Assembly: GCA_951813535.1 (NCBI GenBank) | Contig: OX638345.1 | Location: forward strand, 3,836,608 to 3,900,607 | DNA: 64,000 bases | DNA from: an uncultured Dehalococcoidia bacterium | GTDB lineage: Bacteria > Chloroflexota > Dehalococcoidia > Lucifugimonadales > UBA3495 | Direction of reading: 5' to 3' | Shown here: positions 22,286 through 61,891 of the stretch, piece after piece | Layout of the letters: every line of letters starts with the position of its first letter | Position numbering within the stretch: position 1 is the stretch's first letter | Program-made: the position numbers and the translations under genes | The notes under the pieces: generated by a model | Told to the model about the DNA's origin: nothing | What the model saw: only the letters and a program-made list of their open reading frames with translations | Database searches by the model: none

Positions 22286-22641
22286 CCTGCGGGATTGATG
22301 TTCGAGCAGACCGGTGGTTCCCCCCCGCCCTTGACGAGGCGGAGCAGGAGGATTTGAAAAGGGCGGTGCAGGAGTCGCCGACCACCTCGGGCATGGAACT
22401 GGCCAACTGGTATTGGAAAGGGGTCAGGCAGTTCGTCTGCGAACGCTTCGGCGTTGAGTTGAGCCGTGGCAGTTGCTTGAACTGGCTGCACCGGTTGGGG
22501 TTCAGCTGCAAGCGGCCCCAGAAGCGCTTGGTCAAGGCCAATGGGTCCAAGCGGGAGGCCTTCGTGGCAGAGTATGCCGCCCTGAGGGCGGAGGCCCTGA
22601 GGGAGGAGGCCCAAGGGAGCGGAGGGAAGATATTCTTTGTC

Positions 22642-22749
22642 GACGCGGCTCACTTCCGGGACGCGGCTCACTTCCGGGACGCGGCTCACTTCCGGGACGA
22701 GGCTCACTTCCGGGACGAGGCTCACTTCCGGGACGAGGCTCACTTCCGG
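22642..22749 (+). repeat. 18-bp repeat x6 at the catalytic Asp of the IS630 transposase
   Basis: Three copies of GACGCGGCTCACTTCCGG are followed by three copies of GACGAGGCTCACTTCCGG, all in frame. They encode six hexapeptides D-(A/E)-A-H-F-R in place of the single D-E-A-H-F-R that carries the first catalytic aspartate in this family. Confidence 0.97.
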
Positions 22750-23561
22750 GCGGACGCGGAACTGAGGGGCAAATGGGTGCTCCGGGGAGAACCGGCCCTG
22801 GTGGTCTCGACCAGCCCGCAGTACGGCGAGAAGGCCAGCTATTATTCGGCGGTGTGCCTGGAGACGGGCGAGGTGGAATGGATGGAACTGGAGGGGAACA
22901 GTAACTCCGGAACTTCGGTTGCCTTCTTGGAACAGTTGCGCCAGAGGCCCGGCGGGCGTCGCAACGTGATCTGGGACAACGCGCCAGCCCATCGCGGAGA
23001 GGCGATGCGGTCGTACCTGAAGACCCCCGGCCTCAACCTGAGGCTGGTGAATCTGCCGGGCTGCAGCCCGGACTGCAACGCCGGTGAGGCCATCTGGGGC
23101 TGGGTCAGAGAGGAGGCGACTGGCAATCTGTGCCTGGGAAGCCGGACGGCGGTTCAGGCAAGGGTCGGCAGGTTCCTGGACGGCCTGGCTGGGCGGAGAG
23201 ATGAGGTGAGACGCTGCTGCCGGACCGTCCTGCAATCAAGGGCCGAGGCACTCATGCGAGACCCGATGCCTGATTCCCGACACCCGGCAAATGCACATCC
23301 CACCTTGGCTTTGGTTTAGTGACGTTGGCTATTGATCCACCCCGGACGCTGGCTGTTGCAGCCCCGCGCGACACGAAGCGGGGCCGGTCAGGACAACCGG
23401 CGCCGGGCCTGCCGCCTGTCCCTGTACCAACCTCCGTGCTACTCCGGCCACTGAAGGGACGACATGTGGTTTTTCAGGGTCTTTAGGCCGGCGATTTTCA
23501 CGGACATCCGGCCACCCTGGGAGCGGCGTGGTCTGACGAATATCAGGTTGCCGTAGTTTGG

Positions 23562-24326
23562 TCAATCACCCCCTTGGCCCAGCAGGGCGCGGTGTGGGGA
23601 CAGCCGTTCCCGGTAGCTGGTTCCCTCGATGACGATCTGGTAGCTGGCGTTGGCCAGGCGATCCAGTGCGCTGTTGCCGAGGATGGGATCATCGAAGAGA
23701 GTGAGCCATTCGTCCACGGCCCGGTTGCTGGTGATGACGAAGCTGGACGCCCGATGGCGATTGAGGATCAGTTCGTAGAGATCGGCGGACTGCTGTGGGG
23801 TGAGCCGATGCAGGCCGAGATCGTCGAGGATGAGCAGGTCGGGGGTGAGGAATGACCGGAAGGCGCGGTCCACCGAGTTGTCGACCCGAGCCTGGGCCAT
23901 GGCCTTGAAGAAGTCGTCGGCGTGGCTGAAGCGCACGGTGTGTCCGGCGCGGACGGCCGAGTAGCCCAGGGCCTGAGCCAGAAAGCTCTTGCCGACGCCA
24001 GCGGGTCCCACCAGCAACACGTGCTCGTGCTTGTCCAGAAACTCCAGGGAAAAGACGGCGTCCAGCAATCGGCGGTCCAGAGTAATGGACGCCGACCAGT
24101 CGAAGTCCTCCAGCCGGCAGGTCTCCTCGAAACCGGCGCCCTGCAGCCGGAGTTCGATGCGGCGTTGGGCGCGACGGTTGACCTCGTCGCTGAGGATGAT
24201 CTCCAGGAAGGAGGCATAGTCCAGCTGTTCCCTGCGGGCCAGGGCGATGCGTTCGGGCAGGGTGGCGGCCATGGGGCCCAGTTGGAGCCGCTTGAGCAGG
24301 GGTGTGAGTTCGGTGATGCGGGTCAT
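23562..24326 (-). CDS. istB: IS21 helper ATPase IstB (copy A)
   Basis: This 254-residue AAA+ ATPase assists the IstA transposase in target choice and strand transfer. It shows the IstB helical N-terminus (TELTPLLKRLQLGPMAATL), Walker A VGPAGVGKSFLAQAL, Walker B LLILDDLGLHRL and sensor FVITSNRAVDEW. The ATG overlaps the istA stop by four bases, the usual translational coupling. Identical to the copy B product. Confidence 0.95.
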   Translation of the reverse strand: MTRITELTPLLKRLQLGPMAATLPERIALARREQLDYASFLEIILSDEVNRRAQRRIELRLQGAGFEETCRLEDFDWSASITLDRRLLDAVFSLEFLDKHEHVLLVGPAGVGKSFLAQALGYSAVRAGHTVRFSHADDFFKAMAQARVDNSVDRAFRSFLTPDLLILDDLGLHRLTPQQSADLYELILNRHRASSFVITSNRAVDEWLTLFDDPILGNSALDRLANASYQIVIEGTSYRERLSPHRALLGQGGD

Positions 24327-25885
24327 GATCGACCTCCAGCGGCAAGGGCGAAGACGGAGCCGGGTCGGGCGAAACGACCCGGCGGCAAAGCCAATGGCAA
24401 TTGAGGCAGAGCATCCTGCTCCAGGGCTTGCACCAGGATGCGTTCCACCCGGTTCACGTCGATGAGGTCGACAGCCAGGGCACGCTGGCAGGCGGCATCA
24501 AGACGCTCAGCGGTGTAGCGTTCCCCAAGACGGAGCAGCTTGTGCCCCTGTCTGATCTTCGACCAGGGATGCCGGTCGTCGAAGAGACGTTCGGCGAATT
24601 CGGCCACCGACGGACCCAGCAGAGCGGCGCTGCGCTTGATGCGCTCGGGCGCTTTCATGGTGTAGGCGGTGAGTTCGGCCGGATAATCATCTGGGTCGGT
24701 GGCGCGGCCGCCCCTGGGCTGACGCTGGTGGACCTTGAGGAGCTTGCCCCGGTGGTAGATGCGCACCAGCTTGCTGTCCAGCCTGATTTCCACCTTCTGT
24801 CCCGGTGGGCAGGACGATGACGGCACTGAGTAAAGCGCGTACTGGCAGGCCACGTGATGATCGGGATGGACCTTGGCGGCGCGCCAGTGGGTGATTTCGT
24901 AGGGCTCGCCATCCCAGGGCAGGAGAGCATGACGCTCTTCATCCTGAAAAACCACCAGGGGCTGCCGGCGGATGGTGCCGTGGATGCGCTGACCAGCCAC
25001 CTCCAAACACCAGCGCTGGGCTTCATTGCGCAGGTGGACCAGACCATGGAAATCGCCGCCCTTGAATAAACGCTCCCTGACGTAGGACACGCTCCTCTCC
25101 ACCTTGGGCTTGTCCTTGGGATGACGGACCCGGGCCGGATCGGCGACGAAACCACGATGCTGGGAGTATTCCAGAAAGCCCCGGGTCAGCCGGGGATGCA
25201 ACGGGTCCGGTCCCGCCACCGCCGCCGGGAAATTGTCGATGACCAGGTACCGGGGCACACCGCCGAAGAACGCCCACGCCGCTTCCAGGCCGGCGATCAC
25301 GTCCTCCAGCTTCTGGCTGTGCGTCGGCCAGACGAAGCAATGTCGTGAGTACGACAGCACGATGATCAGCGCCCACACCACCCTGCGCTTGCCCGTGGCA
25401 GGATCGGTGATCATCCCCAACCGGCCGAAGTCCACCTCGGCCACCTCACCGGCCGCAGTGTCGGCCATCCGCACCGTGCGGACGCTGCGCCGTCCCCAGT
25501 TGCGCTTCACGATGAAACGCCGCAACGACGAATACGACACGTGACAGCCGCGCGCCGTCAGCAACTCGTGAATTCGGGTGAGTAACAGCCGGTCGCCGGT
25601 GAGCCACTGGTAAATCTGGTCCGCCCAGGGCTCCAGCAGGTCCTGGCTGGGCATCTCTACCCGCCGCGGCCCCACTTGACCCATGGCCGCCAACCGGCTC
25701 AACTGCTCCTCGGTGGCGACTGGGCCGTCCTGGGCAATGCCCGCGGTCCTGGCCGCCGCCACGTACCTGGCTACCGTGTCGCGCGACAACCCTGTGCCCA
25801 CCGCAATCCGGCGCAGGCTGCCTCCCGCCTGCCAGCGGCGAATGATCTCCTGTATTTCCATCCTGGGAACCTCCCGGTACGCCAT
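24323..25885 (-). CDS. istA: IS21 transposase IstA (copy A)
   Basis: This DDE-type integrase-like transposase opens with a helix-turn-helix (GGSLRRIAVGTGLSRDTVARY). The rve core has AEVDFGRLGMI (first Asp), VPRYLVIDNFPAA (second Asp) and the VRHPKDKPKVERSVSYVRE Glu region, followed by the C-terminal beta-barrel. MAYREVPRMEIQEII is taken as the start with GAGGTG before it. An ATG eight codons later with GGGAGG is an alternative, and a frame 17 codons longer also exists. Confidence 0.93.
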   Translation of the reverse strand: MAYREVPRMEIQEIIRRWQAGGSLRRIAVGTGLSRDTVARYVAAARTAGIAQDGPVATEEQLSRLAAMGQVGPRRVEMPSQDLLEPWADQIYQWLTGDRLLLTRIHELLTARGCHVSYSSLRRFIVKRNWGRRSVRTVRMADTAAGEVAEVDFGRLGMITDPATGKRRVVWALIIVLSYSRHCFVWPTHSQKLEDVIAGLEAAWAFFGGVPRYLVIDNFPAAVAGPDPLHPRLTRGFLEYSQHRGFVADPARVRHPKDKPKVERSVSYVRERLFKGGDFHGLVHLRNEAQRWCLEVAGQRIHGTIRRQPLVVFQDEERHALLPWDGEPYEITHWRAAKVHPDHHVACQYALYSVPSSSCPPGQKVEIRLDSKLVRIYHRGKLLKVHQRQPRGGRATDPDDYPAELTAYTMKAPERIKRSAALLGPSVAEFAERLFDDRHPWSKIRQGHKLLRLGERYTAERLDAACQRALAVDLIDVNRVERILVQALEQDALPQLPLALPPGRFARPGSVFALAAGGRS

Positions 25886-26250
25886 CGCTGCACCTCGGCT
25901 CTGAAGTGCGGCGATGGTCGCCCATGTGGCTCCCAAAGTGGCCTAATGACCCTGAAAATCTGGTAGGAATACCCTGAAAATCTCCTGATTTACTGGCCTA
26001 TAGTCCCTGAACAACAACAGACATACTTGGGCGCGATGGGTTCCGGCGTCGTAGGACGGAAGTCCAGGGAACCGCGCGACCGGACTCATCGGCATTTTCT
26101 CTCCGGGCCGCGTCTCGGGCCCGGCACAGGCAGAACGCACGGCAGGCGCCACCGCCCATCGCAACCGTCATAGTTGCCGAGGAGGATGGCGCGATCGCCC
26201 AAATTGCGCGGTTCGGATACGCTTGTCCTTCAGCTTCAAATACCCGGTAA

Positions 26251-41388: not shown

Positions 41389-42841
41389 CTCGACTTTGTA
41401 CAAAAACTAGAAAAGTTATAAGGACAGGGTAAGCTTGACCAAATCACCACAAGAGGTCAAGCATGTCCTCCCTGCCCACCGTCATTGTAACCGTGCTGTT
41501 CCCCTTTGAGCACCTGTTCGACCGCAGGACCTGGCGCAAGGCCCAACTCCTGGTGGTGGGTGCGATCCTTTCTCCTGGCAAGCGCACGGTATCGTCCGCG
41601 CTGAGCATCCTGGGGATTGGCCAGAGCGGAGACTTCGCCGTCTTTCACCAGGTGCTCAACCGGGCCCGGTGGCAGCCGCTGCAACTGAGCCGGGTGCTGT
41701 TGCTGCTGCTGATTGGCCGCTTGGGTTCATCCACCGAGCCCCTGGTGTTCGGCATCGACGAGACGGTGGAGCGACGCTGGGGCCCAAAGATTGCGGCCAA
41801 GGGGAGGTATCGGGACCCGGTGCGCTCCACCGACGACCAGGTGGTGATGACTCCCGGACTGCAATGGGTCAGCCTGATGCTGCTGACCCGTATCGGGTGG
41901 GCCGGTCGCCACTGGGCGTTGCCCTTCCTGACCGCGCTGGTACCGTCGAACCGCTATGACTGGCTCAAGGGTCGTCGCCATAAGCGGTTCACCGACTACG
42001 CTCAGCAGATGCTGGACTGTCTGCGTCGGTGGCTGCCGGATCGGGACCTGGTGGTAGTCTGCGACGGCGGCTACGCCAAGCGTGATTTCCTGCTCCACTG
42101 CCAGAGCATGTCCAAGCCTATTGTCGTCATAACCAAACTGCGCAAAGACGCGTCCCTGTACCAGCCAGCGCCGCCGCGACGGCCCGGTCAGATCGGCCGG
42201 CCCCGGGTGGTGGGAGCGCGACTGCCCAGTCCCACCGCGGTGCTGGACGATCCCGCCACCCCATGGACCCCCTGCCGTGCCACCACATCCGACGGCGCCG
42301 ATCTCATGATCGAGCTGACTTCTGGCGTGGCGCTGTGGTACCGCGGCGGCTATCCGTCGGTCCATCTGCGCTGGGTCGTGGTCCGGCACCTTGAAGAACC
42401 CCTGGGCCCCCACGCTTTGCTGTGCACCGACATCGACGCCGATCCCCTGCAGATCGTGCAGTGGTATCTGCTGCGTTGGCAGGTCGAGGTGACCTTCGAG
42501 GAACTGCGGGCTCACTTGGGCATGGAAACCCAGCGCCAGTGGTCCGAGCGTGCCATCGCCAGAACCACCCCCGCACTCTTTGGTTTGTTCAGCCTGGTGA
42601 CCCTGGCGGCGGATGTCTTGATTGAACAGCAGGGCGGCATAGTGCCGCGGACCACGGCATGGTATGCCAAAACCAACCCCACTTTCGCCGACGCCATCGC
42701 CCTGGTCAGGCGACACATCTGGGCACAGCAGGAGACTTTTGCCACGTCCGAGCCCAACTCTGAACTGATAAAACTCCCACGCGGGACATACCGCAGGATG
42801 ATCGAGACCCTCGCTTATGCTGCCTGATTGTACAAACTCGA
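41389..42841 (+). mobile_element. IS-A copy 1 (IS701/IS4-clan element, 1453 bp)
   Basis: Ends: CTCGACTTTGTACAAAAAC on the left and, read inward from the right, TCGAGTTTGTACAATC. GTCGCTGACC is duplicated at both sides (41379-41388, 42842-42851). It is inserted in the transposase gene of a relative (IS-B). The coding sequence is the same as in copies 2 and 3, which implies recent movement. Confidence 0.93.
41463..42827 (+). CDS. IS-A transposase, copy 1
   Basis: This DDE-type transposase has 454 residues. The N-terminal region SPGKRTVSSALSILGIGQ and FHQVLNRARWQPLQLSRVLL resembles DDE_5/IS701 proteins. Catalytic candidates are Asp99 (LVFGIDETVERRWG), Asp201 (LVVVCDGGYAKRDF) and Glu342 (LLRWQVEVTFEEL). 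A start codon follows a leader with AAGAGGTCAAGC. No frameshift or stop is seen, so it is probably active. Confidence 0.9.
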   Translation: MSSLPTVIVTVLFPFEHLFDRRTWRKAQLLVVGAILSPGKRTVSSALSILGIGQSGDFAVFHQVLNRARWQPLQLSRVLLLLLIGRLGSSTEPLVFGIDETVERRWGPKIAAKGRYRDPVRSTDDQVVMTPGLQWVSLMLLTRIGWAGRHWALPFLTALVPSNRYDWLKGRRHKRFTDYAQQMLDCLRRWLPDRDLVVVCDGGYAKRDFLLHCQSMSKPIVVITKLRKDASLYQPAPPRRPGQIGRPRVVGARLPSPTAVLDDPATPWTPCRATTSDGADLMIELTSGVALWYRGGYPSVHLRWVVVRHLEEPLGPHALLCTDIDADPLQIVQWYLLRWQVEVTFEELRAHLGMETQRQWSERAIARTTPALFGLFSLVTLAADVLIEQQGGIVPRTTAWYAKTNPTFADAIALVRRHIWAQQETFATSEPNSELIKLPRGTYRRMIETLAYAA

Positions 42842-43606: not shown

Positions 43607-45059
43607 CTCGACTTTGTACAAAAACTAGAAAAGTTATAAGGACAGGGTAAGCTTGACCAAATCACCACAAGAGGTCAAGCATGTCCTCCCTGCCCACCGT
43701 CATTGTAACCGTGCTGTTCCCCTTTGAGCACCTGTTCGACCGCAGGACCTGGCGCAAGGCCCAACTCCTGGTGGTGGGTGCGATCCTTTCTCCTGGCAAG
43801 CGCACGGTATCGTCCGCGCTGAGCATCCTGGGGATTGGCCAGAGCGGAGACTTCGCCGTCTTTCACCAGGTGCTCAACCGGGCCCGGTGGCAGCCGCTGC
43901 AACTGAGCCGGGTGCTGTTGCTGCTGCTGATTGGCCGCTTGGGTTCATCCACCGAGCCCCTGGTGTTCGGCATCGACGAGACGGTGGAGCGACGCTGGGG
44001 CCCAAAGATTGCGGCCAAGGGGAGGTATCGGGACCCGGTGCGCTCCACCGACGACCAGGTGGTGATGACTCCCGGACTGCAATGGGTCAGCCTGATGCTG
44101 CTGACCCGTATCGGGTGGGCCGGTCGCCACTGGGCGTTGCCCTTCCTGACCGCGCTGGTACCGTCGAACCGCTATGACTGGCTCAAGGGTCGTCGCCATA
44201 AGCGGTTCACCGACTACGCTCAGCAGATGCTGGACTGTCTGCGTCGGTGGCTGCCGGATCGGGACCTGGTGGTAGTCTGCGACGGCGGCTACGCCAAGCG
44301 TGATTTCCTGCTCCACTGCCAGAGCATGTCCAAGCCTATTGTCGTCATAACCAAACTGCGCAAAGACGCGTCCCTGTACCAGCCAGCGCCGCCGCGACGG
44401 CCCGGTCAGATCGGCCGGCCCCGGGTGGTGGGAGCGCGACTGCCCAGTCCCACCGCGGTGCTGGACGATCCCGCCACCCCATGGACCCCCTGCCGTGCCA
44501 CCACATCCGACGGCGCCGATCTCATGATCGAGCTGACTTCTGGCGTGGCGCTGTGGTACCGCGGCGGCTATCCGTCGGTCCATCTGCGCTGGGTCGTGGT
44601 CCGGCACCTTGAAGAACCCCTGGGCCCCCACGCTTTGCTGTGCACCGACATCGACGCCGATCCCCTGCAGATCGTGCAGTGGTATCTGCTGCGTTGGCAG
44701 GTCGAGGTGACCTTCGAGGAACTGCGGGCTCACTTGGGCATGGAAACCCAGCGCCAGTGGTCCGAGCGTGCCATCGCCAGAACCACCCCCGCACTCTTTG
44801 GTTTGTTCAGCCTGGTGACCCTGGCGGCGGATGTCTTGATTGAACAGCAGGGCGGCATAGTGCCGCGGACCACGGCATGGTATGCCAAAACCAACCCCAC
44901 TTTCGCCGACGCCATCGCCCTGGTCAGGCGACACATCTGGGCACAGCAGGAGACTTTTGCCACGTCCGAGCCCAACTCTGAACTGATAAAACTCCCACGC
45001 GGGACATACCGCAGGATGATCGAGACCCTCGCTTATGCTGCCTGATTGTACAAACTCGA
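43607..45059 (+). mobile_element. IS-A copy 2 (1453 bp)
   Basis: Same ends and length as copy 1. The target duplication is GAGACGGTT (43598-43606 and 45060-45068), nine rather than ten bases. It is inserted after codon 46 of the split gene. Confidence 0.94.
43681..45045 (+). CDS. IS-A transposase, copy 2
   Basis: This product is identical in sequence to that of copy 1 (454 residues; Asp99, Asp201 and Glu342 intact). The surrounding leader and terminal sequence are also the same, which points to recent transposition or gene conversion. Confidence 0.9.
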   Translation: MSSLPTVIVTVLFPFEHLFDRRTWRKAQLLVVGAILSPGKRTVSSALSILGIGQSGDFAVFHQVLNRARWQPLQLSRVLLLLLIGRLGSSTEPLVFGIDETVERRWGPKIAAKGRYRDPVRSTDDQVVMTPGLQWVSLMLLTRIGWAGRHWALPFLTALVPSNRYDWLKGRRHKRFTDYAQQMLDCLRRWLPDRDLVVVCDGGYAKRDFLLHCQSMSKPIVVITKLRKDASLYQPAPPRRPGQIGRPRVVGARLPSPTAVLDDPATPWTPCRATTSDGADLMIELTSGVALWYRGGYPSVHLRWVVVRHLEEPLGPHALLCTDIDADPLQIVQWYLLRWQVEVTFEELRAHLGMETQRQWSERAIARTTPALFGLFSLVTLAADVLIEQQGGIVPRTTAWYAKTNPTFADAIALVRRHIWAQQETFATSEPNSELIKLPRGTYRRMIETLAYAA

Positions 45060-45519
45060 GAGACGGTTGGCACCGGCAAAAAACGTGGCCCGAGATTGGA
45101 CCGCTGGATTGAAGCCGATTTGAGCGACGGTCGAAAGGTGCTGTTTCAAACCGAGATCAAGAACTTTTCGGCTGCGGCCATCGGTGGCAAAACACTCTCG
45201 GTCGATGCTTCGCGACGAGAGTTGACGGCTCACCAGAACGACCGTTGGCAGCGCTGGTGGGATGCCGCCAATCACACGCTGTCGCGGGACTACACGGCCA
45301 AGGTTCTGGTCCGCATGAAACCTCCTGCCGGCCTCGGGGCACGGAAACAATTGCCGCTGCTCATTTTCTGGGAACCCATTGCTCCTGTTGTTGTTCAGGG
45401 ACTATAGGCCAGTAAATCAGGAGATTTTCAGGGTATTCCTACCAGATTTTCAGGGTCATTAGGCCACTTTGGGAGCCACATGGGCGACCATCGCCGCACT
45501 TCAGAGCCGAGGTGCAGCG

Positions 45520-47082
45520 ATGGCGTACCGGGAGGTTCCCAGGATGGAAATACAGGAGATCATTCGCCGCTGGCAGGCGGGAGGCAGCCTGCGCCGGATT
45601 GCGGTGGGCACAGGGTTGTCGCGCGACACGGTAGCCAGGTACGTGGCGGCGGCCAGGACCGCGGGCATTGCCCAGGACGGCCCAGTCGCCACCGAGGAGC
45701 AGTTGAGCCGGTTGGCGGCCATGGGTCAAGTGGGGCCGCGGCGGGTAGAGATGCCCAGCCAGGACCTGCTGGAGCCCTGGGCGGACCAGATTTACCAGTG
45801 GCTCACCGGCGACCGGCTGTTACTCACCCGAATTCACGAGTTGCTGACGGCGCGCGGCTGTCACGTGTCGTATTCGTCGTTGCGGCGTTTCATCGTGAAG
45901 CGCAACTGGGGACGGCGCAGCGTCCGCACGGTGCGGATGGCCGACACTGCGGCCGGTGAGGTGGCCGAGGTGGACTTCGGCCGGTTGGGGATGATCACCG
46001 ATCCTGCCACGGGCAAGCGCAGGGTGGTGTGGGCGCTGATCATCGTGCTGTCGTACTCACGACATTGCTTCGTCTGGCCGACGCACAGCCAGAAGCTGGA
46101 GGACGTGATCGCCGGCCTGGAAGCGGCGTGGGCGTTCTTCGGCGGTGTGCCCCGGTACCTGGTCATCGACAATTTCCCGGCGGCGGTGGCGGGACCGGAC
46201 CCGTTGCATCCCCGGCTGACCCGGGGCTTTCTGGAATACTCCCAGCATCGTGGTTTCGTCGCCGATCCGGCCCGGGTCCGTCATCCCAAGGACAAGCCCA
46301 AGGTGGAGAGGAGCGTGTCCTACGTCAGGGAGCGTTTATTCAAGGGCGGCGATTTCCATGGTCTGGTCCACCTGCGCAATGAAGCCCAGCGCTGGTGTTT
46401 GGAGGTGGCTGGTCAGCGCATCCACGGCACCATCCGCCGGCAGCCCCTGGTGGTTTTTCAGGATGAAGAGCGTCATGCTCTCCTGCCCTGGGATGGCGAG
46501 CCCTACGAAATCACCCACTGGCGCGCCGCCAAGGTCCATCCCGATCATCACGTGGCCTGCCAGTACGCGCTTTACTCAGTGCCGTCATCGTCCTGCCCAC
46601 CGGGACAGAAGGTGGAAATCAGGCTGGACAGCAAGCTGGTGCGCATCTACCACCGGGGCAAGCTCCTCAAGGTCCACCAGCGTCAGCCCAGGGGCGGCCG
46701 CGCCACCGACCCAGATGATTATCCGGCCGAACTCACCGCCTACACCATGAAAGCGCCCGAGCGCATCAAGCGCAGCGCCGCTCTGCTGGGTCCGTCGGTG
46801 GCCGAATTCGCCGAACGTCTCTTCGACGACCGGCATCCCTGGTCGAAGATCAGACAGGGGCACAAGCTGCTCCGTCTTGGGGAACGCTACACCGCTGAGC
46901 GTCTTGATGCCGCCTGCCAGCGTGCCCTGGCTGTCGACCTCATCGACGTGAACCGGGTGGAACGCATCCTGGTGCAAGCCCTGGAGCAGGATGCTCTGCC
47001 TCAATTGCCATTGGCTTTGCCGCCGGGTCGTTTCGCCCGACCCGGCTCCGTCTTCGCCCTTGCCGCTGGAGGTCGATCATGA
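45520..47082 (+). CDS. istA: IS21 transposase IstA (copy B)
   Basis: The product equals that of copy A, including the helix-turn-helix, the AEVDFGRLGMI and VIDNFPAA aspartates and the PKVERSVSYVRE glutamate region. The stop overlaps the istB start by four bases. The start choice carries the same uncertainty as in copy A. Confidence 0.93.
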   Translation: MAYREVPRMEIQEIIRRWQAGGSLRRIAVGTGLSRDTVARYVAAARTAGIAQDGPVATEEQLSRLAAMGQVGPRRVEMPSQDLLEPWADQIYQWLTGDRLLLTRIHELLTARGCHVSYSSLRRFIVKRNWGRRSVRTVRMADTAAGEVAEVDFGRLGMITDPATGKRRVVWALIIVLSYSRHCFVWPTHSQKLEDVIAGLEAAWAFFGGVPRYLVIDNFPAAVAGPDPLHPRLTRGFLEYSQHRGFVADPARVRHPKDKPKVERSVSYVRERLFKGGDFHGLVHLRNEAQRWCLEVAGQRIHGTIRRQPLVVFQDEERHALLPWDGEPYEITHWRAAKVHPDHHVACQYALYSVPSSSCPPGQKVEIRLDSKLVRIYHRGKLLKVHQRQPRGGRATDPDDYPAELTAYTMKAPERIKRSAALLGPSVAEFAERLFDDRHPWSKIRQGHKLLRLGERYTAERLDAACQRALAVDLIDVNRVERILVQALEQDALPQLPLALPPGRFARPGSVFALAAGGRS

Positions 47083-47843
47083 CCCGCATCACCGAACTCA
47101 CACCCCTGCTCAAGCGGCTCCAACTGGGCCCCATGGCCGCCACCCTGCCCGAACGCATCGCCCTGGCCCGCAGGGAACAGCTGGACTATGCCTCCTTCCT
47201 GGAGATCATCCTCAGCGACGAGGTCAACCGTCGCGCCCAACGCCGCATCGAACTCCGGCTGCAGGGCGCCGGTTTCGAGGAGACCTGCCGGCTGGAGGAC
47301 TTCGACTGGTCGGCGTCCATTACTCTGGACCGCCGATTGCTGGACGCCGTCTTTTCCCTGGAGTTTCTGGACAAGCACGAGCACGTGTTGCTGGTGGGAC
47401 CCGCTGGCGTCGGCAAGAGCTTTCTGGCTCAGGCCCTGGGCTACTCGGCCGTCCGCGCCGGACACACCGTGCGCTTCAGCCACGCCGACGACTTCTTCAA
47501 GGCCATGGCCCAGGCTCGGGTCGACAACTCGGTGGACCGCGCCTTCCGGTCATTCCTCACCCCCGACCTGCTCATCCTCGACGATCTCGGCCTGCATCGG
47601 CTCACCCCACAGCAGTCCGCCGATCTCTACGAACTGATCCTCAATCGCCATCGGGCGTCCAGCTTCGTCATCACCAGCAACCGGGCCGTGGACGAATGGC
47701 TCACTCTCTTCGATGATCCCATCCTCGGCAACAGCGCACTGGATCGCCTGGCCAACGCCAGCTACCAGATCGTCATCGAGGGAACCAGCTACCGGGAACG
47801 GCTGTCCCCACACCGCGCCCTGCTGGGCCAAGGGGGTGATTGA
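47079..47843 (+). CDS. istB: IS21 helper ATPase IstB (copy B)
   Basis: 254 residues, identical to copy A, with Walker A VGPAGVGKS and Walker B LLILDDLG intact. Confidence 0.95.
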   Translation: MTRITELTPLLKRLQLGPMAATLPERIALARREQLDYASFLEIILSDEVNRRAQRRIELRLQGAGFEETCRLEDFDWSASITLDRRLLDAVFSLEFLDKHEHVLLVGPAGVGKSFLAQALGYSAVRAGHTVRFSHADDFFKAMAQARVDNSVDRAFRSFLTPDLLILDDLGLHRLTPQQSADLYELILNRHRASSFVITSNRAVDEWLTLFDDPILGNSALDRLANASYQIVIEGTSYRERLSPHRALLGQGGD

Positions 47844-48279
47844 CCAAACTACGGCAACCTGATATTCGTCAGACCACGCCGCTCCCAGGGTGGCCGGATG
47901 TCCGTGAAAATCGCCGGCCTAAAGACCCTGAAAAACCACACCTCCGAGGAGGTCCTTCAAGCTGGGGTATAAATCCGACGGCGGCCACCTGTTCAGCGTT
48001 CCCGACCCGACTTGCAATTTCGGATTCTCCGTTCCTGCTTCCTGGGATGGCCACGAGCGGGGGTTCCCGGAACTCTGGATTTTCTCGGTATCCAGTTACC
48101 TCAGAAGCGTCGCCAGAACGCAGGACCATTTTGCCTTGGAAATGCCAGTAGCCGCGCACCGAATCGGCGCACTCAACCGACTCATTGAGCCTGGGGTGAG
48201 ACGACCGACGCCCTCTGATGCGTAGTCGATAACGCCGGCGCGCGCCAGTGCGTGGTTGAATGCGTGAGGTTCCGTCTAG

Positions 48280-49084
48280 GCTCTGTTGACATTTGATTAC
48301 AATGGCCGCATGTCAAACATCAGACTATCACCGGAACAGTGGGTCAGGATTCTCGATTTCTGGCGTGGCTGCACTGGCGTGTACGTCGGCCAGGAAGCGG
48401 ATTGCCGACGGTTTGTCGAGGCCGTCTTATGGATCAACCGCTCTGGGGCGCAATGGCGACTGCTGCCAGCCGAGTACGGGAACTGGAACACCGTCTACAA
48501 ACGGTTCGCCCGTTGGACTGACCAAGGCGTCTGGGAACAGATGCATCAATGTTTCTCCGACGACCCTGATCTGGAATACCTGATCATTGACAGCACGGTG
48601 GTACGGGCGCACCCTTGCGCGGCGGGAGCGCCCCCCAAAAAGGCGGTCAGGCCGCCCAGTCCCTGGGCCGGAGCCGAGGCGGGTTCAGCACGAAGGTTCA
48701 CGTGAGCGTGGACGGCTTGGGCAACCCCTTGCGGTTCATCCTGACCGGAGGGCAACAGCACGACATCACCCAGGCGGAGGGGTTGATCGCGGGTTACGCT
48801 GGCGAGCACGTACTGGCCGACAAAGGATATGACGCTCGGGAGTTTCGCCAGCACATCCTGGAACTGGGCATGACCCCGGTCATTCCGCCCCCCTCGAACC
48901 GCAAGGAACCCGCTGATTATGACCGTCATCTGTACCGGGAGCGTCATCTGGTGGAATGCTTCATCGGCAAGATGAAACACTATCGCCGGATATTCTCCCG
49001 GTTTGAGAAACTGGACACCAGATACCTGGGCTTCCTGCATTTCACCGCCGCTCTCGTCTGGTTACGGTGAAATGTCAACAGAAC
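48280..49084 (+). mobile_element. IS5-family element (IS427-like), copy 2, 805 bp
   Basis: Same terminal repeats and length as copy 1, flanked by CTAG at 48276-48279 and 49085-49088. It lies between the end of the split gene and the 31-residue peptide gene, whose promoter region it may have replaced. Confidence 0.9.
48310..49070 (+). CDS. IS5-family transposase (OrfA/OrfB), copy 2
   Basis: It differs from copy 1 at a few residues (C for R in the first 20 codons, PP for PR near IPP). Catalytic Asp (IIDSTVVRAH), Asp (ADKGYDA) and Glu (HLVECFIGKMK) are kept. At the frameshift site the run is six C then five A (copy 1 has five C and six A), so the canonical A-AAA-AAG heptamer becomes C-AAA-AAG. 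Frameshifting may be weaker in this copy. Confidence 0.83.
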
Positions 49085-49196
49085 CTAGGCATGTTGACAT
49101 AGTCACTTGAACACGATTGCAGGCTGGTTTGGAACCCACCCCGGCGATTTATCAAGCAGTTTTGCAAGCATTTCGGGTGACTAAAGGAGGCTGCTG

Positions 49197-49292
49197 ATGG
49201 CTCAAATAGTGATGCTGGGCGGAGTCGTTTTGGGCAGCGCGGTGATACTGGCCGCGTTCGTGCCAATCATCATCGCCGCGATTGCCCACTAA
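49197..49292 (+). CDS. 31-residue hydrophobic membrane peptide
   Basis: The ATG follows AAAGGAGG with an eight-base gap, the strongest ribosome site in this part of the window. The product is one transmembrane helix (VMLGGVVLGSAVILAAFVPI and IIAAIAH) with hardly any soluble part. A terminator hairpin lies eight bases behind the stop. It is too short for routine gene calling. Candidates are a small subunit of a membrane complex, a regulatory small membrane protein or a type I toxin; no family is recognised. Confidence 0.65.
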   Translation: MAQIVMLGGVVLGSAVILAAFVPIIIAAIAH

Positions 49293-49299
49293 TCACAGA

Positions 49300-49335
49300 G
49301 GCCCCGCCAATTTGTGCCGGCGGGGCCATCATTTA
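49300..49335 (+). terminator. Rho-independent terminator of the 31-residue peptide gene
   Basis: GGCCCCGCC, ten-base loop, GGCGGGGCC, then ATCATTT. The 9-bp GC stem is perfect; the T tail is short. Confidence 0.75.
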
Positions 49336-49348
49336 CGAGGTGAAAGCA

Positions 49349-49662
49349 ATGCCGCACGGCGACCGTCACCTAATGAATCCACTACCAAAGTGTACCTTTG
49401 ACCAAGTTGTTGACATTCTGGTCCTAGAGCCAGAGCGGAAGACGACGTTGCATACAACCGGGAACCCGGGTGTAGATTTTGTTGCGGAAGCAAAATTCAC
49501 CAAATTGGGTCAACGATACATTTCGCTCCCACACGGCAATCGCATTTACCCCTGTTGCTGGGGTAACGCCGAGAATCACATGGGGGCAACGGGGAAACGT
49601 GGACAACGCACGGCCACTACTCGCGGCCTCTTGATGAGTGGGCCACCGATAAAACGCGGTAG
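49349..49662 (+). pseudogene. Small hypothetical gene with a probable one-base frameshift
   Basis: The ATG follows GAGGTGAAAGCA. The frame encodes FDQVVDILVLEPERKTTLHT, VDFVAEAKFTKLGQRYISLP and HGNRIYPCCWGNAENHMG. A run of five G follows. With six G the frame would continue GNGETWTTHGHYSRPLDEWA and end at TAG 49662, a better-looking C-terminus than the present frame. The product would be about 104 residues. The family is not known to me. The change may be real decay or a base-calling error. Confidence 0.55.
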
Positions 49663-49813
49663 ATGTCTTGTGGCCTACGGGATCTCTACACCTGTAAAAG
49701 GCGGCGGTAAAGTGGACCGCGTGGGCGGACGATTGCTGACAAACGGCGGTTGAATCCTGTACCGCCCGCCGCCATCTATAGGGTTGTACTCGACCTTACG
49801 GATGGTGCGATGG

Positions 49814-51312
49814 ATGTACAGAGTGGACGTATACCTGCGGGTTCGCCGGGCGGTTATGGTGGAGGGGATGAGCGTTCGGGAAGCGTCCCGGGTGTTCGGT
49901 CTGCATCGGGACACGGTGCGCAAGATGCTGGCCTACTCGGTTCCACCCGGCTACCGGCGAAAGATCCCGCCACGCCGACCCAAGCTCGAGCCCTTCACCG
50001 GCGTGATTGACGCGATACTGGAAGGCGATAGCCGAGTTCCCAAAAAGCAGCGCCACACGGCCAAGCGCATCTTTGAGCGGTTGCGGGACGAGTACGGGTT
50101 CACCGGTCAGTACACCATAGTCAAGGACTACGTCAGGGAGCAGGGACGGCGGACGCAGGAGATGTTCGTGCCGTTGTCCCACCCGCCGGGCCATGCGCAG
50201 TGCGATTTCGGGGAGGCGGTGGCGGTCGTCGGCGGAGTGGAGCGCAAGGTGCATTACTTCGTGCTGGACCTGCCCCACAGCGACGGCTGCTTCGTGAAGG
50301 CCTATCCCGCCGAGACCACCGAGGCCTTTCTGGACGGACACGTGTCAGCCTTTGCCTTCCTTGGCGGTGTGCCCCAGAGCATCCTGTACGACAATACCAA
50401 ACTGGCGGTGGCGCGGATACTGGGCGACAGTCGCCGCCAGCGCACGAGGGCGTTTACCGAGTTGCAGTCCCACTACCTGTTCGAGGACCGGTTCGGACGA
50501 CCCGGCAAAGGCAATGACAAGGGGAAGGTCGAGGGGATGGTTGGCTACGTGCGGCGCAACTTCCTGGTGCCGATACCGTCCTACGAGAGCTTCCGGCGCT
50601 GAATGCTCACCTGGAGCAAAGGTGCGTGGAGCGCATGGACGCCGTGCTGCGGGGACACTCGGAGACCATCGGCCAGCGGATGGAGCGGGACCTGGACGCT
50701 CTGCTGCCCTTGCCCGCCGTGCCCTACGACGCCTGCGACAAACAGAGCAGCCGGGTCAGTTCGTTGTCGTTGGTCCGTTACCGCACCAACGACTACTCGG
50801 CGCCGGTGGCCTATGGACACCGGGACGCGCTGGTGCGTGGCTACGTGGGCGAGGTGGTGATCAGCTGCGGCGCCGAGGTCATCGCCCGGCATCCCCGCTC
50901 TTACGAGAAAGACGACTTTGTCTTCGACCCCATCCACTACCTGCCGCTTTTGGAGCGGAAGACGGCCGCTCTGGACCAGGCCGCGCCGCTGCAGGGGTGG
51001 GAGCTGCCCGAGGAGTATCAGACGCTGCGGCGTCTGCTGGAGGCGCGCATGGGCCGGCGGGGCAAGCGGGAATTCGTGCAGGTGCTACGCCTGATGGAGC
51101 ATTTCTCCCATCAGGAAGTCCATCACGCCGTCAAGGACGCCCTGCGGCTGGGCGCACTCAGCTTTGACGCCGTGAAGCACCTCTTGCTGTGCTACATCGA
51201 AGGCCGGCCCCCTCGCCTGGATCTTGATCTGTATCCCTATCTGCCCCGGGTCAGTGTGAAAACCAATCGCGCCACGGACTACATGGGCCTGTTGACGCAG
51301 AGGGCAGCATGA
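49814..51312 (+). pseudogene. istA: istA of a third IS21 type, one-base frameshift near 50598
   Basis: The first frame starts MYRVDVYLRVRRAVMVEGMS with helix-turn-helix VREASRVFGLHRDTVRKML. The rve core has HAQCDFGEAVAV, SILYDNTKLAV and GKGNDKGKVEGMVGYVRRNF. After SYESF the frame ends; the matching frame goes on with ALNAHLEQRCVERMDAVLRG and the C-terminal barrel (RTNDYSAPVAYGHRDALVRG), ending at 51312. One missing base in GGCGCTG explains the break. The istB start overlaps its stop. Confidence 0.87.
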
Positions 51313-51566
51313 GCAATCGGTCCACGCTGCTTTTGGAGCACCACCTGAAAGAGCTCAAGCTGCCCACCTTCCTGAGGGAGTACCGCAAGCTGGCCGCCCA
51401 GTGTGCCCAGGAAGGCACGGATCACCCTGACTACCTGCTCCGCCTCGCCGAACTGGAACTCATCGATCGCCACCAGCGCATGGTCCAGCGCCGCATCCGC
51501 GCCGCCCGCTTCCCTGCGGTCAAAAGCCTGGACACCTTCGACTTCCTGACCATCCCCTCGGTGAAC

Positions 51567-53019
51567 TCGAGTTTGTACAATCAGGCAGCATAAGCGAGGG
51601 TCTCGATCATCCTGCGGTATGTCCCGCGTGGGAGTTTTATCAGTTCAGAGTTGGGCTCGGACGTGGCAAAAGTCTCCTGCTGTGCCCAGATGTGTCGCCT
51701 GACCAGGGCGATGGCGTCGGCGAAAGTGGGGTTGGTTTTGGCATACCATGCCGTGGTCCGCGGCACTATGCCGCCCTGCTGTTCAATCAAGACATCCGCC
51801 GCCAGGGTCACCAGGCTGAACAAACCAAAGAGTGCGGGGGTGGTTCTGGCGATGGCACGCTCGGACCACTGGCGCTGGGTTTCCATGCCCAAGTGAGCCC
51901 GCAGTTCCTCGAAGGTCACCTCGACCTGCCAACGCAGCAGATACCACTGCACGATCTGCAGGGGATCGGCGTCGATGTCGGTGCACAGCAAAGCGTGGGG
52001 GCCCAGGGGTTCTTCAAGGTGCCGGACCACGACCCAGCGCAGATGGACCGACGGATAGCCGCCGCGGTACCACAGCGCCACGCCAGAAGTCAGCTCGATC
52101 ATGAGATCGGCGCCGTCGGATGTGGTGGCACGGCAGGGGGTCCATGGGGTGGCGGGATCGTCCAGCACCGCGGTGGGACTGGGCAGTCGCGCTCCCACCA
52201 CCCGGGGCCGGCCGATCTGACCGGGCCGTCGCGGCGGCGCTGGCTGGTACAGGGACGCGTCTTTGCGCAGTTTGGTTATGACGACAATAGGCTTGGACAT
52301 GCTCTGGCAGTGGAGCAGGAAATCACGCTTGGCGTAGCCGCCGTCGCAGACTACCACCAGGTCCCGATCCGGCAGCCACCGACGCAGACAGTCCAGCATC
52401 TGCTGAGCGTAGTCGGTGAACCGCTTATGGCGACGACCCTTGAGCCAGTCATAGCGGTTCGACGGTACCAGCGCGGTCAGGAAGGGCAACGCCCAGTGGC
52501 GACCGGCCCACCCGATACGGGTCAGCAGCATCAGGCTGACCCATTGCAGTCCGGGAGTCATCACCACCTGGTCGTCGGTGGAGCGCACCGGGTCCCGATA
52601 CCTCCCCTTGGCCGCAATCTTTGGGCCCCAGCGTCGCTCCACCGTCTCGTCGATGCCGAACACCAGGGGCTCGGTGGATGAACCCAAGCGGCCAATCAGC
52701 AGCAGCAACAGCACCCGGCTCAGTTGCAGCGGCTGCCACCGGGCCCGGTTGAGCACCTGGTGAAAGACGGCGAAGTCTCCGCTCTGGCCAATCCCCAGGA
52801 TGCTCAGCGCGGACGATACCGTGCGCTTGCCAGGAGAAAGGATCGCACCCACCACCAGGAGTTGGGCCTTGCGCCAGGTCCTGCGGTCGAACAGGTGCTC
52901 AAAGGGGAACAGCACGGTTACAATGACGGTGGGCAGGGAGGACATGCTTGACCTCTTGTGGTGATTTGGTCAAGCTTACCCTGTCCTTATAACTTTTCTA
53001 GTTTTTGTACAAAGTCGAG
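51567..53019 (-). mobile_element. IS-A copy 3 (1453 bp)
   Basis: Same sequence ends as copies 1 and 2 but inverted. CTCGGTGAAC is duplicated at 51557-51566 and 53020-53029. It is inserted in istB of the third IS21 type. Confidence 0.94.
51581..52945 (-). CDS. IS-A transposase, copy 3
   Basis: 454 residues, identical to copies 1 and 2, all catalytic positions intact. Confidence 0.9.
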   Translation of the reverse strand: MSSLPTVIVTVLFPFEHLFDRRTWRKAQLLVVGAILSPGKRTVSSALSILGIGQSGDFAVFHQVLNRARWQPLQLSRVLLLLLIGRLGSSTEPLVFGIDETVERRWGPKIAAKGRYRDPVRSTDDQVVMTPGLQWVSLMLLTRIGWAGRHWALPFLTALVPSNRYDWLKGRRHKRFTDYAQQMLDCLRRWLPDRDLVVVCDGGYAKRDFLLHCQSMSKPIVVITKLRKDASLYQPAPPRRPGQIGRPRVVGARLPSPTAVLDDPATPWTPCRATTSDGADLMIELTSGVALWYRGGYPSVHLRWVVVRHLEEPLGPHALLCTDIDADPLQIVQWYLLRWQVEVTFEELRAHLGMETQRQWSERAIARTTPALFGLFSLVTLAADVLIEQQGGIVPRTTAWYAKTNPTFADAIALVRRHIWAQQETFATSEPNSELIKLPRGTYRRMIETLAYAA

Positions 53020-53851
53020 CTCGGTGAACAAACCGCTGGTAATGCAACTGGCCCGGTGCGAATACATCGAGCGCCGTGAAAACGTCATCGCCATCGGCAA
53101 CAGCGGCACCGGCAAGACCCACATCGCCCTGGGCCTGGGCTTGGCCGCCTGCCAGCGGGGCATGTCCGTGGGCTTCACCACCGCCGCCGCACTGGTCCAC
53201 GAACTCATGGAGGCCAGGGACGACCGCAGACTGCTCAACCTGCAGCGGCAACTGGCTCGTCTCAAGCTGCTCATCATCGACGAGTTGGGCTTCGTGCCGT
53301 TGTCCACCACCGGGGACGGAACTGCTCTTCGAGGTCTTTAGCTAGCGCTACGAGCGCGGCTCCATCCTGGTCACCACCAACCTCCCCTTCGACGAGTGGA
53401 CCGAGGTCTTCGGCTCGGAACGCCTCACCGGCGCACTGCTGGACCGTCTCACCCACCACGTGCACATCATCGAGATGAACGGCGACAGCTACCGCCTGAA
53501 AGGTAGCCGGCAGAACGCCGTCTCACTGTCTCCGGAAGCACCGGCCGACGCTTAGGACACCGCCAACGCCACCCCCGCTCAGTCCCCTGGCAAACCCAGT
53601 CGCCAGTCTGGTCAAAGCCGTCAGGCATTATCCCCGTGGTACGGTTTTACTACGCCACAGCGGTACGCATTGCCGCCGCCATTGACACCGGAGAGAGCAT
53701 CAGAAACGCGCGACGGCCTCAGTGCCTTTTCGCACCGAAGTAGCAATGCGGACGGCCGCAGCAGGCGCGCGACGGCCGTTTACGCCGGATCCGGGATGAG
53801 AGATACGGCGGAACTCGGACACCACCGTCCGGTTCAGAGTTGATAAGCCGG

Positions 53852-59432: not shown

Positions 59433-60197
59433 TCAATCACCCCCTTTGCCCAGCAAAGCCCGGTGTGGCGACAGTCGTTCCCGGTAGCTGGCGCCCTCGA
59501 TGACGATCTGGTAGCTGGCATTGGCCAGGCGGTCGAGAGCGCTGTTGCCCAGGATGGGATCGTCGAAGAGACTGAGCCATTCGTCGACGGCCCGGTTGCT
59601 GGTGATGACGAAGCTGGACGCCCGGTGGCGATTGAGGATCAGTTCGTAGAGATCAGCGGACTGCTGAGCTGTGAGCCGATGCAGGCCGAGATCGTCGAGG
59701 ATGAGCAGGTCGAGGGAAAGGAAGGACCGGAAGGTACGGTCCACCGAGTTGTCCACTCTGGCCTGAGCCATGGCCTTGAAGAAGTCGTCGGCGTGGCTGA
59801 AGCGGACGGTGTGTCCGGCGCGGACGGCCGAGTAGCCCAGCGCTTGAGCGGGGAAGCTCTTGCCGACGCCAGCCGGTCCCACCAGGAGGACGTGCTCGTG
59901 CTTGTCCAGAAACTCCAGGGAGAAGACGGCGTCCAGCAGCCGGCGATCCAGGGTAATTGACGCCGACCAGTCGAAGTCTTCCAGCCGGCAGGTCTCCTCG
60001 AAACCGGCGCCCTGCAGCCGGAGTTCGATGCGGCGTTGAGCGCGGCGGTTGACCTCGTCGCTGAGGATGATCTCCAGGAATGATGCGTAGTCCAGCTGTT
60101 CCCTGCGGGCCAGGGCGATGCGTTCGGGCAGGGTGGCGGCCATGGGGCCCAGCTGAAGCCGCTTGAGCAGGGGTGTGAGTTCGGTGATGCGGGTCAT
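59433..60197 (-). CDS. istB: IS21 helper ATPase IstB (copy C)
   Basis: 254 residues with a few substitutions relative to copies A and B (FP for FL after Walker A VGPAGVGKS, SLDLLILDDLG at Walker B, TAQQ for TPQQ, GKGGD end). The frame is intact. Its istA is frameshifted near the end. Confidence 0.92.
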   Translation of the reverse strand: MTRITELTPLLKRLQLGPMAATLPERIALARREQLDYASFLEIILSDEVNRRAQRRIELRLQGAGFEETCRLEDFDWSASITLDRRLLDAVFSLEFLDKHEHVLLVGPAGVGKSFPAQALGYSAVRAGHTVRFSHADDFFKAMAQARVDNSVDRTFRSFLSLDLLILDDLGLHRLTAQQSADLYELILNRHRASSFVITSNRAVDEWLSLFDDPILGNSALDRLANASYQIVIEGASYRERLSPHRALLGKGGD

Positions 60198-61757
60198 GAT
60201 CGACCTCCAGCGGTAAGGGCGAAAACGGAGCCGGGTCTGGCGAAGCGGCCGGCTGGCATGGGCAGTGGCAATTGCGGCATGGCCTCCTGTTCCAAAGCCT
60301 GCACCAGGATGCGCTCCACCCGGTTCACGTCGATGAGATCGACGTCCAGGGCACGCTGGCAGGCGGCATCAAGACGCTGGGCGGGTGTAGCGATCACCGA
60401 GCCTGATCAGCTTGTGCCCCTGCCTGATCTTGGACAAGGGATGCCGGTCATCGAAGAGCCGTTCGGCGAATTGGGCCACCGACGGTCCCAGCAGAGCGGC
60501 GCTGCGCTTGATGCGCTCGGGCGCTTTCATGGTGTAGGCGGTGAGTTCGGCCGGATAATCATCTGGGTCGGTGGCGCGGCCGCCCCTGGGCTGACGCTGG
60601 TGGACCTTGAGGAGCTTGCCCCGGTGGTAGATGCGCACCAGCTTGCTGTCCAGCCTGATTTCCACCTTCTGTCCCGGTGGGCAGGACGATGACGGCACTG
60701 AGTAAAGCGCGTACTGGCAGGCCACGTGATGATCGGGATGGACCTTGGCGGCGCGCCAGTAGGTGATCTCGTAAGGCTCGCCGTCCCAGGAGAGCAGGGC
60801 CTGGCGTTCCTCATCCTGGGATACCACCAGGGGCTGACGGCGGGTGGTGCCGTGGATGCGCTGGCCCGCCACTTCCAAACACCAGCGCTGGGCTTCCGTA
60901 CGCAGGTGGAGCAGACCATGGAAATCACCGCCCTTGAAGAGGCGCTCCCTCACGTAGGACACGCTCCTCTCCACCTTGGGCTTGTCCTTGGGATGACGGA
61001 CCCGGGCTGGGTCGGCGACGAAACCACGATGCTGGGAGTATTCCAGAAAGCCCCGGGTCAGCCGGGGATGCAACGGGTCCGGTCCCGCCACCGCCGCGGG
61101 GAAATTGTCGATGACCAGGTACCGGGGCACACCGCCGAAGAACGCCCACGCCGCTTCCAGGCCGGCGATCACGTCCTCCAGCTTCTGGCTGTGCGTCGGC
61201 CAGACGAAGCAATGTCGTGAGTACGACAGCACGATGATCAGCGCCCACACCACCCTGCGCTTGCCCGTGGCAGGATCGGTGATCATCCCCAACCGGCCGA
61301 AGTCCACCTCGGCCACCTCACCGGCCGCAGTGTCGGCCATCCGCACCGTGCGGACGCTGCGCCGTCCCCAGTTGCGCTTCACGATGAAACGCCGCAACGA
61401 CGAATACGACACGTGACAGCCGCGCGCCGTCAGCAACTCGTGAATTCGGGTGAGTAACAGCCGGTCGCCGGTGAGCCACTGGTAAATCTGGTCCGCCCAG
61501 GGCTCCAGCAGGTCCTGGCTGGGCATCTCTACCCGCCGCGGCCCCACTTGACCCATGGCCGCCAACCGGCTCAACTGCTCCTCGGTGGCGACTGGGCCGT
61601 CCTGGGCAATGCCCGCGGTCCTGGCCGCCGCCACGTACCTGGCTACCGTGTCGCGCGACAACCCTGTGCCCACCGCAATCCGGCGCAGGCTGCCTCCCGC
61701 CTGCCAGCGGCGAATGATCTCCTGTATTTCCATCCTGGGAACCTCCCGGTACGCCAT
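60194..61757 (-). pseudogene. istA: IstA of IS21 copy C, frameshift near the C-terminus
   Basis: The catalytic core is the same as in copies A and B, but one extra G in the stretch encoding GDRYT/AQRLDAACQ (about 60385-60390) ends the frame as RYTRPAS. The remaining C-terminal 55 or so codons (DAACQRALDVDLIDVNRVER) follow in the next frame up to the istB overlap. Loss of this tail may or may not abolish activity. Confidence 0.87.
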
Positions 61758-61891
61758 CGCTGCACCTCGGCTCTGAAGTGCGGCGATGGTCGCCCATGTG
61801 GCTCCCAAAGTGGCCTAATGACCCTGAAAATCTGGCAGTAAGACCCTGAAAATCTCCTGATTTACTGGCCTATAGTCCCTGAACAACAACA

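Follow-up and report, generated by a model that had tools for sequence, protein, structure and literature searches.

A short ORF for an uncharged, hydrophobic 31-residue peptide and a second ORF (ORF2) downstream of it form what we interpret, with moderate confidence, as a rare, probably laterally moved bicistronic accessory unit, laid out as ribosome site, 31-aa single-span peptide, hairpin, ribosome site and ORF2. The unit lies in a 4.38 Mb, one-contig genome of SAR202 (Chloroflexota), within the 64-kb stretch of DNA analysed here (the window), and the only counterpart found is in one congener, SAR202 cluster bacterium bin87 (hereafter bin87). In the reading we favour, the ORF ahead of ORF2 either encodes a membrane microprotein or serves as a leader that does little by itself. 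If translated, the pair would contribute a membrane microprotein missing from annotations and a so far unnamed ORF2 family, from an uncultured group whose small proteins have received little attention; it also offers a concrete case for operon structure and translational coupling. The finding is modest: the unit is rare, shared with one relative and partly decayed here.

A hydrophobic peptide ORF behind a strong ribosome site

The peptide ORF (49197-49292, on the + strand like all parts of the unit) runs for 31 codons from an ATG at 49197 to a TAA at 49290-49292. Its product, MAQIVMLGGVVLGSAVILAAFVPIIIAAIAH, has a GRAVY of 2.2, contains no K, R, D or E, and ends in His. The Shine-Dalgarno-type site AAAGGAGG (49183-49190) is located 6 nt ahead of the ATG, so that both the strong ribosome site and the all-hydrophobic 31-residue product of a preliminary description of this locus were borne out. 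To estimate how often such an arrangement arises by chance, the window was simulated 60 times with a first-order Markov model, and ORFs of 20-60 aa that start with ATG and follow an AGGAGG were counted. These arose about 1.45 times per 64-kb replica, and because none in the 60 replicas reached a GRAVY of at least 1.5, the combination of ribosome site and uncharged hydrophobic 31-residue ORF is well beyond chance for 64 kb. The tiny gene for a membrane-type peptide is probably real. The peptide matches no protein family, the window contains no Rfam match, and a promoter scan called no sigma-70-like promoter upstream of the peptide.

Type I toxins are small hydrophobic helical peptides (PMC8309996), and a membrane-depolarising toxin restrained by an antisense RNA would agree with a product of fewer than 60 aa that has high hydrophobicity, a presumed single helix and mobile-element surroundings. 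Cationic residues, usually C-terminal, are common but not universal in membrane type I toxins, being absent from IbsC, ShoB and DinQ (PMC8309996); neither of the two peptide sequences here contains K or R, which counts against a toxin. The peptide is also single copy, has no family match and is paired with ORF2 in both genomes, and no promoter-like site was called on either strand across 48900-49900, so we consider a type I toxin quite improbable.

The hairpin and ORF2

Between the two ORFs lies a hairpin, GGCCCCGCC-N10-GGCGGGGCC (49300-49327), which begins 7 nt past the peptide stop codon and ends 9 nt ahead of the ORF2 ribosome site. It has a 9-bp core in the window (-22.9 kcal/mol, z -3.95) and a 12-bp stem in bin87 (-21.9 kcal/mol, z -2.85), where C has become T at two positions of the 5' arm and the pairing is preserved as G-U. 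The preliminary description took this structure for a dedicated terminator. The tail that follows is ATCATTTA rather than a T-tract, a terminator scan did not call the hairpin, and GAGGTG and ORF2 come close downstream; with the T-tract absent and a second ribosome site so near, we read it as a putative intercistronic hairpin. The same lack of a T-tract and the proximity of ORF2 rule out a stand-alone gene with an intrinsic terminator.

The second Shine-Dalgarno-type site, GAGGTG (49337-49342), is conserved in bin87 and precedes the ORF2 ATG at 49349 by 6 nt. ORF2 (49349-49662) encodes a member of a small uncharacterised protein family; it has 103 intact codons in bin87 and is frameshifted in the window. 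The window product is 77% identical to that of bin87 through residue 87, its frame shifts just past 49609 (near 49610), and the expected end (GHYSRPLDEW..., GHYSRPLDEWATDKTR) persists in another frame up to a TAG at 49660-49662, while the frame open from the start extends to 49753. An assembly error might account for the frameshift, although it does not fall in a homopolymer run. Because of the frameshift, the two-gene unit looks partly decayed in the window. We rejected the idea that the two ORFs are fused by a programmed -1 frameshift: upstream of ORF2 in bin87 its frame is closed by a stop at 858, and no slippery heptamer common to both sequences was seen on reading the two.

A block shared with one congener

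A DNA search of 60 relatives recovered the peptide/ORF2 block from bin87 only (MPNC01000052.1, locus L010), at 81% DNA identity across window positions 49175-49645. In the alignment, similarity begins at GGGTGAC just 5' of the first ribosome site and stops with ORF2, and the flanks are unrelated. The block in bin87 comprises a ribosome site (its AGGAGGCTGCTG core identical), the peptide, the hairpin, the second ribosome site and the 103-codon ORF2, with both ribosome sites, both start codons, the hairpin, and the order and spacing of the parts all kept. The two peptides share 21 of 31 residues (68% aa identity); the 10 replacements are all still uncharged, and the bin87 peptide (GRAVY 1.7) likewise lacks charged residues. 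The same order and spacing recur in bin87 between differing flanks in which no insertion sequences are recognisable, which argues that peptide and ORF2 form a unit of their own rather than part of an insertion sequence, and that in the window an IS5-like element on one side and an IS21-like element on the other later came to enclose the pair. Other segments common to both genomes are mostly about 75-93% identical, and the 81% of the block lies within this range, so identity alone proves nothing.

The peptide had been described as standing alone, yet in the sole other genome that has it, it travels with ORF2. The broader proposal, that a small gene for a membrane peptide really exists within an IS-rich island, is plausible, as peptide and ribosome site are kept in one congener. 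As an observation on the bin87 locus, the region downstream of the pair (L010 1463-6329) encodes a coiled-coil protein with a hydrophobic C-terminal segment and two large GTPases, one of them with a dynamin-like helical domain.

Distribution of the peptide and of the ORF2 family

The peptide occurs in 2 of 50 family genomes. Conservation in relatives, which had been proposed as a check, was thus seen in 1 of 13 congeners and in no other family member. Elsewhere among 247 genomes of the order there was no peptide at a credible score, and none was found in viral contigs; of the other weak matches, the one inspected closely (G562) is an unrelated frame with an internal stop.

ORF2 is more widespread. 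Homologs were found in other families of the order (G515, E 1e-26; G488, E 3e-22) and in the class (G732, E 2e-29), and in weaker matches in the class (G769 and G914, E about 5e-9) the similarity covers the N-terminal portion of a larger protein. No hydrophobic peptide (18-60 codons, GRAVY above 1, within up to 400 bases) lies upstream of any of these homologs, which means that ORF2 does not need the peptide. Further weak matches that the ORF2 profile gave within the phylum and the family (G428, G209, G106, G283, G005, G022) were read as unrelated frames, and ORF2 was found in none of three collections of viral, phage and plasmid sequences. Adjoining the G488 homolog is a 316-aa protein (L062 1896-2846) that matches nothing in Pfam; its N-terminal part is HNH-like and contains Cys.

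These homologs (E 1e-22 to 1e-29), together with an excess of third-position changes, a low dN/dS and a confident structural model, establish ORF2 as a genuine protein family. The AlphaFold2 model, built from a seven-sequence alignment, has a pLDDT of 85.5 and a pTM of 0.78. ORF2 matched no family in Pfam, NCBIfam or PHROGs at a credible score, and a sequence search of solved structures gave no credible match. The fold search of the model against solved and viral structures returned nothing at E 0.001 or better; the top structural match was 2x5c (Z 3.7), too weak to infer a function.

In the two weaker class matches (L065 1366-2214 in G769; L066 in G914), the ORF2-like domain (ARIYPCCWGHTTN...GTRIGGYSDGLDAW) is positioned at the protein N-terminus. 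The C-terminal part of the G769 protein has a weak GIY-YIG match (22.0 bits against a Pfam cut-off of 22.6, E 2e-4), and this fusion of an ORF2-like with a GIY-YIG-like part is a lead to the role of the ORF2 domain. A bolder proposal is a new two-component system of SAR202 bacteria, perhaps a defence or mobile-element control module, in which ORF2, an uncharacterised alpha/beta protein whose domain is fused elsewhere to a GIY-YIG-like nuclease domain, would be anchored or controlled by the membrane peptide. We give this a slim chance.

Two small co-directional genes, one for a hydrophobic peptide and one for a soluble-looking protein of ~100 aa, also invite comparison with a protein-antitoxin pair in the manner of GhoT/GhoS, with the peptide as toxin and ORF2 as antitoxin. 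Two observations disfavour it: three genomes have ORF2 but no such peptide ahead of it, and in the window it is frameshifted beside an intact peptide ORF, a state that a lethal toxin, if expressed, would not tolerate. A toxin-antitoxin pair is accordingly very unlikely.

Selection on the peptide

The two ORFs differ in their patterns of substitution. Between the two sequences the peptide has a dN/dS of 0.58 (NG86) or 0.48 (YN00), compared to 0.24 and 0.32 for ORF2 in the same comparison. The 17 peptide substitutions are spread over the codon positions as 7/5/5, with no third-position excess, whereas those in ORF2 (15/11/24) are concentrated at the third. When the same substitutions were placed at random, 5.6% of trials in one direction and 1.1% in the other conserved the peptide as well as observed, with the frame open, no more than 10 residues replaced and no polar or charged residue gained. 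From these two sequences, selection acting on the peptide as a protein is weakly supported.

Such values leave some room for a peptide ORF that is untranslated, its similarity being left over from the common origin of a segment that the two genomes shared recently: the peptide is found in two genomes only, its dN/dS is not low, its identity is at the level of other shared segments, and the neighbouring ORF2 is already broken. We nevertheless judge chance or a relic improbable, as none of the 60 simulated windows gave an ATG ORF with a perfect ribosome site and a GRAVY of at least 1.5, and as frame, start, stop and ribosome site survive 17 substitutions.

The weak protein-level selection would also suit a regulatory leader ORF, in which the peptide itself has no job and its translation, or stalling on its hydrophobic C-terminus, sets the hairpin and hence the level of ORF2. 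The strong ribosome site, the short ORF and the conserved hairpin, placed 7 nt past the stop and 9 nt ahead of the ORF2 site, agree with such a leader. However, the residues remain uncharged and hydrophobic across 10 replacements, the codon run of amino-acid attenuators and the T-tract of a transcription attenuator are absent, and the hairpin as drawn leaves the ORF2 ribosome site uncovered. A purely regulatory leader is thus a minority reading, unlikely but to be taken seriously.

Flanking insertion sequences and the surrounding island

Both elements that flank the pair are on the + strand. The upstream one (48276-49088) is IS5-family-like, with inverted ends CTAGGCTCTGTTGACATTT / AAATGTCAACAGAACCTAG and split transposase ORFs. 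The IS21-like element (49691-53465) lies directly downstream of ORF2; its left end was inferred from the repeated TGTAAAAGGCGGCGGTAAAGTGGACCG, its right end is approximate, and a DDE_5 insertion element (51566-53019) divides it in two.

The island holds three copies of the DDE_5 element with identical transposases (41463-42827, 43681-45045 and 51581-52945), the last of which is inverted and interrupts the IS21-like element. The inverted DDE_5 elements (43607-45060 and 51566-53019) may make up a composite transposon; the right copy is the one that interrupts the IS21-like element. Two IS21-like istA/istB pairs on opposite strands (23562-25936 and 45469-47843) have identical translated proteins, and a third, diverged copy is found at 59433-61808. 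Within a transposase-like ORF (22354-23319), six copies of an 18-bp unit (GACGAGGCTCACTTCCGG; 22642-22750) run in frame and encode a repeated DEAHFR in the apparent catalytic region.

Proposed expression of the unit

A bicistronic unit would most likely be expressed from one mRNA, with both peptide and ORF2 translated. The strong first ribosome site would load ribosomes, and the peptide, once made, would insert into the membrane. Ribosomes finishing at the peptide stop could melt the hairpin 7 nt downstream, and this coupling would in turn aid expression of ORF2, a predicted small alpha/beta protein. The window copy appears to be decaying, a fragment between two insertion sequences with a frameshifted ORF2. 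For this bicistronic interpretation we count a block bounded at both ends and 81% identical, the retention of ribosome sites, starts and hairpin, and the chance of 0.01-0.06 in the substitution simulation. Against it we count that only two peptide sequences exist among the genomes searched, a peptide dN/dS of 0.5-0.6, ORF2 homologs elsewhere that lack the peptide, the absence of a called sigma-70-like promoter upstream, and an identity of 81% that is no higher than in other shared segments.

Comparison with known systems

Like the membrane type I toxins Fst/Ldr, TisB, IbsC and Lpt, the peptide has fewer than 60 residues, is hydrophobic and forms a single presumed helix, and it shares with Fst and Lpt a proline in the helix (PMC8309996). 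Type I systems have been reported in Proteobacteria, Firmicutes, Tenericutes and, in one case, a cyanobacterium (PMC12390103), so an example in Chloroflexota would be new, if true. Unlike these toxins, the peptide has no sequence match, no antisense RNA or promoter seen and no cationic C-terminus, and is paired with a downstream protein gene.

GhoT/GhoS is a type V pair in which a small membrane protein and a soluble protein of roughly 100 aa are encoded together. The present pair resembles it in joining a small membrane-type peptide to a ~100-aa soluble-looking protein, but here the peptide gene stands in front and its product is roughly half as long, and ORF2 matches no family and occurs without the peptide. 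KdpF and CydX are operon-borne small membrane subunits of about 30 residues with one span, much as the peptide is about 30 residues long with one presumed span in a putative operon; its partner is a small soluble-looking protein where theirs is a membrane complex. Leader ORFs with intercistronic hairpins consist of a short ORF with a strong ribosome site, a hairpin and a second gene. Although the codon run and the T-tract are missing here and the drawn fold lies off the second ribosome site, the peptide/ORF2 unit has the same layout.
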